64,000 nucleotides of DNA from positions 1 through 64,000 of the forward strand of contig JAIYDD010000275.1 of assembly GCA_027487675.1 (NCBI GenBank), read 5' to 3'. This DNA comes from Acetobacteraceae bacterium. GTDB taxonomy: Bacteria > Pseudomonadota > Alphaproteobacteria > Acetobacterales > Acetobacteraceae. Position numbers and translations under genes: made by a program. This document shows, one piece after another, positions 16,479 to 23,535 of the stretch; position 1 is the first letter of the stretch, and each line of letters begins with the position of its first letter. The notes below the pieces were generated by a model. That model did not search any database and was not told where the DNA came from. It saw nothing but the letters and a program-made list of their open reading frames with translations.

Positions 16479-16625
16479 GGCGGTCCCTCCCGCGGCAGCG
16501 TGGCGGGCGCGCCGGGCCGCGGCAACCCCGCCACCCCCGCACGCCCCCTCGCGTTGACGCCGCTTCGCGGACGGGCCTAGCGTCCTTCTCACCCGCATCG
16601 CAAGGGATTGGGAGAGGAACGGCCA

Positions 16626-17381
16626 ATGGCGAATGGCGTGAAGGCGGCCTGGGCGGCCGGCAAGCCGGTGCTGAACGGGTGGCTCGCCATCCCCTCCGGC
16701 TTCAGCGCGGAAGTCATGGCGCTCGCCGGCTTCGACAGCCTGACGGTCGACATCCAGCACGGGGTGCAGGACTACCTCTCCATGGTCGCCTGCTTCCAGG
16801 GCATGCAGCCGCACGGCGTGACACCGATGGTCCGCGTCCCCTGGAACGAGGTCGGCATCATCGGCAAGGTGCTGGACGGCGGCGCCAAGGGCGTGATCTG
16901 CCCGATGGTGAACACCGAGGCCGAGGCGCGCGCCCTGGTCTCCGCCTGCCGCTACCCGCCCAAGGGCACGCGCAGCTTCGGCCCGATCCGCTCCGGCCTC
17001 TACGGCGCGCCGGCCGACACCAACGCGGCGAACGACGACGTCCTCGTCATCCCGATGATCGAGACCAAGACGGCGCTCGAGAACCTGGAGTCGATCGTCT
17101 CCGTCCCCGGCGTCGACGCGGTCTATATCGGCCCCTCCGACCTCTCGCTCTCGCTCGGGATGGAGCCGAAGCAGGACCGGCAGGAACCGGAATTCCTGGA
17201 GATCCTGGACCGCATCCGCACCACCGCCCACCGCCACGGCGTGAAGGCCTGCATCCACACCATGTCGGGCGCTTACTCGAAGCAGATGCTCGCCCGTGGC
17301 TTCAACCTGGCCACCATCATGAACGACAGCGGCCTGATGCTGACCGGCGCCCGCGCCCAGCTGGCGGCCGCGCGAGGCTGA
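16626..17381 (+). CDS. HpcH/HpaI aldolase/citrate lyase family protein
   Basis: SAEVMALAGFDSLTVDIQHGVQDY...PMVRVPWNEVGIIGKVLDGGAKGVICPMVNTEAEA...VDAVYIGPSDLSLSLG. Confidence 0.94.
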   Translation: MANGVKAAWAAGKPVLNGWLAIPSGFSAEVMALAGFDSLTVDIQHGVQDYLSMVACFQGMQPHGVTPMVRVPWNEVGIIGKVLDGGAKGVICPMVNTEAEARALVSACRYPPKGTRSFGPIRSGLYGAPADTNAANDDVLVIPMIETKTALENLESIVSVPGVDAVYIGPSDLSLSLGMEPKQDRQEPEFLEILDRIRTTAHRHGVKACIHTMSGAYSKQMLARGFNLATIMNDSGLMLTGARAQLAAARG

Positions 17382-17406
17382 AGGGGCGGTAGCGCTTGTG
17401 GCCCGG

Positions 17407-17624
17407 GTAGGGCTCTGCCCTCCCCGTACCCCACCCGCCAGGGGCGTGACGCCCCTGGACCCGTCATCAGTTGGTCGTTGGTTGGGGAGGGGGCCGCGCG
17501 CGCCATTGCCACGCGTCCGCCCTTGAGGCCCCCTCCCCAACCAACGACAAAACTCACGGCTGGGGTCCGGGGACCGCCACGGTCCCCGGCGGGGAGGGTT
17601 CGGGAGGGGCAGCGCCCCTCCCGA
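17407..17624. repeat. Composite intergenic repeat: two inverted copies of a two-hairpin module around a 22-bp inverted repeat
   Basis: Perfect stems at 17409-17421, 17438-17458, 17567-17589 and 17601-17623, plus the 22-bp IR 17474-17495/17527-17548. Confidence 0.9.
17474..17548. repeat. 22-bp perfect inverted repeat with 31-nt loop
   Basis: GTCGTTGGTTGGGGAGGGGGCC ... GGCCCCCTCCCCAACCAACGAC. Confidence 0.97.
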
Positions 17625-17638
17625 GGAGCCGCCACCGC

Positions 17639-17911
17639 CTACCCCCCCTTCAAGGCCTTCCGCAGGTTCGCCCGCACGCGCCGCCGGGCCGGGGCCAGGG
17701 CGGCCGCGGCGACCAGGTCGGGTCGGCTGCCGAGCATGGCGGCCTGGGTGGCCGCGATGGCGCCGGCGGTGAAGGCGCGCTGCTTCTCCTCCGCCATGTC
17801 GCACAGCGTGGCGGCGGCGGTCGCGGGCTGGGTCCACAGCTGCGCCGAGCGCAGGGTGAAGACGCAGCCGGCCTGCCAGGCGAGAAGGGCGTAGTCGGCG
17901 GGGGTTCTCAC
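17639..17911 (-). CDS. Small conserved-type protein (90 aa, helical/phasin-like), function unknown
   Basis: GTG start overlaps the peroxiredoxin stop (GTGA): MRTPADYALLAWQAGCVFTLRSAQLWTQPATAAATLCDMAEEKQRAFTAGAIAATQAAML... Confidence 0.65.
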   Translation of the reverse strand: MRTPADYALLAWQAGCVFTLRSAQLWTQPATAAATLCDMAEEKQRAFTAGAIAATQAAMLGSRPDLVAAAALAPARRRVRANLRKALKGG

Positions 17912-18390
17912 AGGGCGGCCAGTACCGCCTCGGCCTTCGACACCTCGAAGGCGCCCGGCGCTTCGACCGCGATGTGCGTGACCTTGCCGCCCTTGGCGAT
18001 CAGCGCGAAGCGCTGGCAGCGCAGGCCGAGGCCGCGCGCCGTCAGGTCCAGTTCCAGGCCGAGCGCCTTGGTGAAGGCCGCCGAGCCATCGGCCAGCATC
18101 ACCACCTCCTCCGTGATGCCCTGGTCCTTGGCCCAGGCGCGCATCACGAAGGCGTCGTTCACCGACATGCAGGCGATGCTGTCCACGCCCTTGGCCTTCA
18201 GCGCCTCGGCGTGCTGGACGAAGCCGGGCAGGTGCTTGGCCGAGCAGGTCGGCGTGAAGGCGCCCGGCACCCCGAACAGCACCACGGTCCCGCCGCCGAA
18301 GAGGTCGGTGGTCGAGACCTCCTTCGGCCCTTCGGCGGTGGCCTGCATCAGCCGCACCTCGGGGATCTGGTCCCCCACCTTGATCGTCAT
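17908..18390 (-). CDS. Peroxiredoxin (Prx5/AhpC-TSA family)
   Basis: GGGTVVLFGVPGAFTPTCSAKHLPGFV...KGVDSIACMSVNDAFVMRAWAKDQ. Confidence 0.96.
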   Translation of the reverse strand: MTIKVGDQIPEVRLMQATAEGPKEVSTTDLFGGGTVVLFGVPGAFTPTCSAKHLPGFVQHAEALKAKGVDSIACMSVNDAFVMRAWAKDQGITEEVVMLADGSAAFTKALGLELDLTARGLGLRCQRFALIAKGGKVTHIAVEAPGAFEVSKAEAVLAAL

Positions 18391-18503
18391 CGCGTGATCC
18401 CCCGCGCCTCGTGGTCAACCCTGCCATGTAGCGCGTGATGGCATGGTGGCGGAAGCGCCCCGCCGCGCTTGCGGTGCCCGGCCGGCGGCCTCATCTTCCC
18501 GGC

Positions 18504-23425: not shown

Positions 23426-23443
23426 GATGGGGGAGGGCCTTGC

Positions 23444-23535
23444 GGGGGCTCCGCCCCCACGCCCCCGCGGGCCCCCATGCACGCTGCGCGGCATCGTGCA
23501 CGGGTTCCGTCGCCGGGGGGCGTGGCGCCCCCCGG
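23444..23535. repeat. Third copy of composite hairpin repeat, with an extra internal hairpin
   Basis: GGGGGC-TCC-GCCCCC (23444-23458), TGCACG...CGTGCA (23478-23500), CCGGGGGGCG-TGG-CGCCCCCCGG (23513-23535). Confidence 0.85.

Follow-up and report, generated by a model that had tools for sequence, protein, structure and literature searches.

In the window, by which we mean the whole 64,000-nt stretch of DNA that was analysed, a composite palindrome of the form A-B-C-B'-A' (17388–17642) fills the intergenic space from an HpcH/HpaI aldolase gene (PF03328, 16626–17381, plus strand) to a convergent small ORF. It is one copy of a family of five-hairpin elements of about 250 bases. The sequence comparisons showed the copy number, shared architecture and 3'-end position of this family, compensatory stems almost without G-U pairs, loop inversion, nested in-place inversion between species and a flank symmetry specific to each copy. 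Judged from the sequence comparisons, we give a probability of about 0.6 to the reading that the element is a REP/BIME-like gene-end palindrome whose symmetry and inversions are due to template switching, and probably a 3'-end hairpin array.

The window element and its family

Hairpin A (type 1; 17404–17426, plus strand, loop TCT) contained one T-C mismatch peculiar to the window copy and was preceded by a left terminal tail, GGTAGCGCTTGTGGC (17388–17402, plus strand), whose consensus, GGTTGCGCTKGTGGC, occurred at both ends of many copies. Hairpin B (type 1; 17438–17458, plus strand) was CCAGGGGCG-TGA-CGCCCCTGG, with 9 bp and a TGA loop, and was joined by the type 1 linker ACCCGTCATCAGTTG (17459–17473, plus strand) to the left arm of the central hairpin C (17474–17495, plus strand), which had the form GTCG-N8-GGAGGGGGCC with a copy-variable N8. 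The central loop of 31 nt (17496–17526, no strand assigned) was constant in length in 30 copies from the element's own genome and occurred in both orientations. On the minus strand followed the right arm of C (17527–17548), the type 2 linker (17549–17566), hairpin B' (type 2; 17567–17589, CCGGGGACCG-CCA-CGGTCCCCGG, 10 bp), hairpin A' (type 2; 17600–17624, TCGGGAGGGGC-AGC-GCCCCTCCCGA, 11 bp) and a right terminal tail (17628–17642) that matched the consensus weakly, with 5 mismatches. In 9 of 30 copies each end carried the 15-nt tail with no more than 4 mismatches. An outer left flank arm (17379–17392, plus strand), with the TGA stop of the aldolase gene at its start, formed an inverted match, 93% complementary, with an outer right arm (17639–17652, minus strand) in which the small ORF has its TAG stop, and the symmetry extended up to both stop codons. 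The small ORF itself (17639–17911, minus strand) had no Pfam match and adjoined a Redoxin-family gene (17908–18390). The folding energy of the window element was about 10 SD below that of dinucleotide shuffles on each strand.

The first-pass annotation had described an inverted pair of hairpin modules at 17407–17624. All four hairpins that it named (A, B, B' and A') were present there, the modules were inverted copies of each other (17404–17443 against 17584–17623, 78% complementary), and the 22-bp perfect inverted repeat between them corresponded to the two arms of C around the 31-nt loop, while the element as a whole reached further out, to about 17388–17642. The additional copies it supposed within the window were not recovered as full copies; a weak partial module was observed at 23434–23535, consisting of an A-like hairpin followed by CCGGGGGGCGTGGCGCCCCCCGG (E 0.14–0.6). 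It had also named two outcomes that would refute its reading, a lack of further copies in the genome or relatives and a lack of significant covariation; further copies were found, as was covariation in the C stem.

The element's own genome was placed in Falsiroseomonas (family Acetobacteraceae) by named orthologues, and genome-wide counts come from searches scoring up to 150 candidates per genome. At least 38 places in this genome matched a covariance model of the central hairpin, and the full-length copies among the dozens found there by DNA search were mostly 78–88% identical, so the window element is not a product of chance. Central hairpins were present in 15 of the 15 Falsiroseomonas genomes searched, with 3–32 model matches per genome in the sister species among the matches listed. 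The two-hairpin A-B module was more widespread, with at least 136 occurrences in the element's genome, and was present in at least 57 of 150 Acetobacteraceae genomes, representing at least 42 of 102 genera, and the family included single modules, inverted pairs and pairs arranged around C. Aligned copies from the own genome were always heterodimers, in which a type 1 module was joined with a type 2 module, inverted around the centre. The genomes compared were mostly draft assemblies, and genes were called with a home-made caller. We found no literature on palindromic repeats of Roseomonas or the Acetobacteraceae that described a five-hairpin element; as far as we have searched, the family is a real, REP/BIME-like one that has not been reported before.

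Several variant forms were also observed. Three inverted module pairs in the own genome (L194, L195, L196) carried about 190–340 nt of other DNA in place of C, and a module pair without C lay directly after a tRNA-like sequence (L120, G000:C154). Four copies from two species (L021, L116 and L119 in the own genome, L078 in G001) had an extra hairpin like GTCGCGGCAGTGCCGCGAC at the A/B junction, resembling the insertion of a second hairpin repeat at this point, and other hairpins were inserted at the apex of A in L025 and inside B' in L086. In L010 the A stem was extended into a long hairpin without mismatches (GCGGGTGGGGTCTGGGGAGGGC-TCC-...) that also took in the A-B spacer.

Position at gene ends

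Among 35 own copies read for context, 34 had a gene 3' end beside them, usually with the stop codon within about 20 nt, and the facing stop codon lay at a median of 8 nt from the element. The flanking genes were convergent in 17 instances, tandem in 17 and divergent in 1. Convergent settings accounted for 14 of the first 30 copies, compared with 5 of 42 gene pairs in the window (p 0.002), and divergent settings for 1 of 30 compared with 8 of 42 (p 0.07). The end of the HpcH gene carried a single plain hairpin in most relatives. Within the named set of orthologues, the module was found only in F. bella, as A-B only, and in F. oryziterrae, where the full five-hairpin element was present in unrelated letters.

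Hairpin A was polar with respect to the strand. Its loops, read from A to B in own copies, were TCC, GCT, GCC, TCT and similar, and we looked for but did not find the reversed polarity in these copies. Deletion derivatives at orthologous loci included two (L284, L290) that kept one A hairpin after the stop codon and two (L287, L292) that had lost C, leaving ATCGAT. The strand-polar A beside each stop codon, together with the A retained in deletion forms, suggests selection on A as a 3'-end hairpin. No intrinsic terminator (a GC stem followed by a T tract) was detected in 16500–18500, where no U-tract followed the stems and no canonical promoter or promoter-like site was present. A coding role for the loop was rejected by eye, some copies reading into stops despite the constant length.

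We suggest that the element is probably a bidirectional 3'-end hairpin array and, more tentatively, that selection may mainly keep the strand-polar hairpin A beside each stop codon. The weakest step is the 3'-end role itself, for which position and polarity would point to termination, to protection of the mRNA end, or to both, serving one or both of the adjacent genes. A 3'-end structure that is symmetric and indifferent to orientation would explain why inversion is tolerated.

Paired stem changes, flank symmetry and inversion in place

The 22-bp C stem was compared in 30 copies. Its outer GTCG and inner GGAGGGGGC were almost fixed, while the eight pairs between these ends varied freely and yet stayed complementary (98.2% paired). 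Ninety pairing changes were both-sided compared with 2–3 that were one-sided, which was matched in 0 of 500 shuffles, and G-T pairs accounted for about 3 of 660. A weakly supported tree of the flanking modules needed 5–14 changes for each of the eight pairs, indicating that the stem changes were repeated rather than inherited once. The claim of the first-pass annotation that stem changes preserve pairing was borne out across the 30 copies of the family.

Compensatory changes in a stem normally serve as proof that an RNA fold is under selection, and the earlier interpretation of this structure-preserving divergence was selection on ssDNA or RNA folding. A structured 3' UTR RNA, a bidirectional terminator or an sRNA would produce such changes, and this explanation draws on the very stable folds of both strands, the strong covariation, the location after stop codons and the conserved polarity of the A loop. 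It predicts wobble intermediates, however, and G-U pairs were almost absent, although a requirement for folding in either strand could also account for this. No match above the gathering score was found in Rfam for the window, and selection on an RNA fold predicts neither loop inversion, nor in-place flips of the complete element or of B-C-B', nor copy-specific flank symmetry. The same pattern of paired changes fits template switching between arms, and these observations weaken the folding interpretation to one that we consider unlikely.

Inversion was evident at the smallest scale in the central loop, which was reversed in 8 of 30 own copies relative to the frame set by the type 1 and type 2 modules. 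Allowing loop reversal gained 157 log units of likelihood, and the largest gain among 60 simulations that lacked reversal was 20.

Symmetry was also found outside the element. We compared the unique left flank of each copy with the reverse complement of the right flank of the same copy and of other copies, and found that over about 40 nt outside A the two unique flanks of a copy mirrored one another as inverted repeats. Similarity within a copy exceeded all 2000 permutations just outside A in the 30 own copies, and the same was found independently in 43 copies from relatives (0 of 2000 permutations at the nearest offsets). It was lost at a distance of about 125 nt from the C base, held separately in convergent and tandem settings, and was absent in direct orientation. 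In some examples the symmetric sequence took in the stop codon and final codons of the genes on either side. Insertion of a fixed element into unique DNA would not give symmetric flanks; insertion into an older palindrome could explain them in part.

To compare orthologous sites we used 17 loci at which a full element lay between colinear genes in at least two species (flank BLAST and a composite flank query), with flanks mostly 83–95% identical. A, B plus linker, and the loop were scored separately at each locus, with ambiguous calls at the A level resting on the B level. The element or its inner part was inverted between species at 8 of the 17 loci (1, 3, 4, 5, 8, 9, 12 and 14). At locus 12, genomes G012 and G006 (L035 and L038) differed by an inner B-C-B' inversion alone; once reversed, it was identical at 127 of its 129 bp, with both differences at the centre of the loop, while A, A' and the genes were unmoved. 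At locus 9, G006 and G013 (L109 and L265) differed by the loop alone, with 29 of 30 positions matching after reversal. The close pair G006 and G012 differed at 7 of 11 comparable loci, six by inversion of the whole element and one of the inner part. Breakpoints fell at three nested levels, each in different sequence, and the loop-bounding arms of C varied by copy.

Origin of the symmetry and comparison with known systems

Template switching between the arms of inverted repeats homogenises the arms and inverts the spacer (PMC8604942), and RNA hairpins have been proposed to arise and persist through it, with multiple paired changes and inverted loops as its traces (PMC8794818). Both hallmarks were present in the family, as paired stem changes without wobble intermediates and as spacer or loop inversion, and all the published traces occurred together, at three nested levels. 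Symmetrisation at the DNA level is favoured over selection on an RNA fold because of four results: the scarcity of G-U pairs, the loop in both orientations, the flank symmetry and the inversion in place. We infer that the symmetry was likely made and renewed by template switching or by hairpin-mediated recombination between nested arms. One arm copied from the other would give paired changes without wobble intermediates; the DNA between the switching points, whether the loop, B-C-B' or the whole element, would be flipped; and copying past the old end of an arm would extend the palindrome outwards into the gene ends. The product would be a doubled, symmetric array indifferent to flipping, with selection acting on A. 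As a counterpoint, B and B', like A and A', were unlike each other within a copy, so homogenisation was not uniform. Inversion by RecA-dependent recombination or by a recombinase is possible.

A broader proposal, that a dedicated process continually flips gene-end palindromes of the Acetobacteraceae at three nested levels, so that dozens of 3' ends vary in orientation among members of one species, and perhaps of one population, appears doubtful to us; if true, it would have consequences for termination or read-through. The family itself offers dozens of related loci in one genus in which paired changes stand alongside loop inversion, in-place inversion and symmetrised flanks, a combination expected of a mutation process. 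With these loci the choice between selection and template switching can be tested directly. They are also relevant to the origin of REP heterodimers and serve as a warning for covariance-based RNA discovery in GC-rich genomes.

Recent spread of a miniature mobile element, either a REP with a RAYT-like enzyme or a MITE, would account for the dispersed copies and the inverted terminal tails, and at locus 10 the element occupied one of four species only, next to a different downstream gene, which indicates that gain or loss happens. The first-pass annotation had likewise proposed REP/MITE-like mobility and looked to a REP-associated tyrosine transposase and flanking target duplications. The Y1 transposase (PF01797) was found in 0 of 15 Falsiroseomonas genomes (the own genome and 14 congeners), while the same search was positive in 5 of 14 controls. 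Flanking direct repeats in 9 testable copies averaged 2.1, compared with 1.5 (sd 0.55) by chance, and target duplications were thus not above chance. The same loci were occupied across species, which argues that the elements are mostly inherited and not currently jumping. The REP-like part of that proposal was right in kind, the copies being dispersed, intergenic, at gene 3' ends and inverted heterodimers, and we regard recent mobility as rather improbable.

A separate, true MITE was observed in the same genome, 219–220 bp long and with about 40 copies by matches to its terminal inverted repeat, CAGGCTGCGGAAATTCG (L211, L212, L213 and L243–L261, e.g. G000:C54:44818-45037). It had paired terminal inverted repeats and 4-bp target duplications (CTAG, TTAG, TTAA), and its body shared the A-B..B'-A' layout, a point in favour of mobility that indicates that the modules can ride on true transposons. 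At locus 2 in another genome (L301, G006:C28), B' was interrupted, near a contig end, by DNA resembling an inserted element.

An invertible switch with a dedicated site-specific recombinase, as in inverton-like phase variation, would agree with clean in-place inversions at several loci that were frequent between close species. Such a switch fits poorly with three nested levels of breakpoints in different sequences, loop-bounding C arms that vary by copy, a segment with no promoter-like site and orientations that look equivalent, and we consider it very unlikely. Errors of short-read assembly at hairpins are the least credible explanation of the inversions: most genomes were draft and hairpins are hard to sequence, but the identical bounding arms, at about 20–25 bp, were below usual assembly words, inverted forms usually had their own substitutions, flipped loops occurred in 8 separate own copies, and the flank symmetry was independent of orientation calls.

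Among known systems, REPs and BIMEs, which include the GTAG and CGTC superfamilies (Di Nocera et al. 2013, PMC3733652), resemble the element as short, GC-rich palindromes in many copies, intergenic, located after genes and often in inverted heterodimers. The family likewise consisted of high-copy extragenic palindromes at gene 3' ends, rarely between divergent genes, and as in BIMEs its units were paired in inverted orientation. In contrast to REPs, its unit was a two-hairpin module of 75–80 nt, with a 75-nt central hairpin between modules, and it was almost without the G-T pairs often observed in GTAG REPs (PMC3733652). Nested in-place inversion between species was not found described for REPs. 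No conserved GTAG or CGTC tag was found at the aligned copy ends, which show the tail consensus, and assignment to the GTAG or CGTC REPs was rejected. A RAYT-moved REP was rejected on the lack of a Y1 transposase in the 15 genus genomes; alphaproteobacterial CGTC REPs are also without a dedicated transposase (PMC3733652).

Bacterial MITEs, which have inverted terminal sequence, share with the element a non-coding body of 70–300 bp; the element carried its tail at both ends in 9 of 30 copies. The absence of target-site duplication above chance in the 9 testable copies led us to reject this class, and the loci of the element were common to several species. The in-place flip of DNA between inverted repeats is common to the element and to invertons, from which it differs in having no promoter seen, several nested levels and copy-variable arms. 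Small hairpin inversions have reportedly been seen in chloroplast intergenic DNA. Arm homogenisation, paired changes and spacer inversion are shared with hairpins attributed to template switching (PMC8794818, PMC8604942). Loop inversions in that work were mostly of 4–8 nt (PMC8794818), whereas in the present family they involved 31-nt loops, inner segments of about 130 nt and whole elements of about 250 nt, in dozens of copies.
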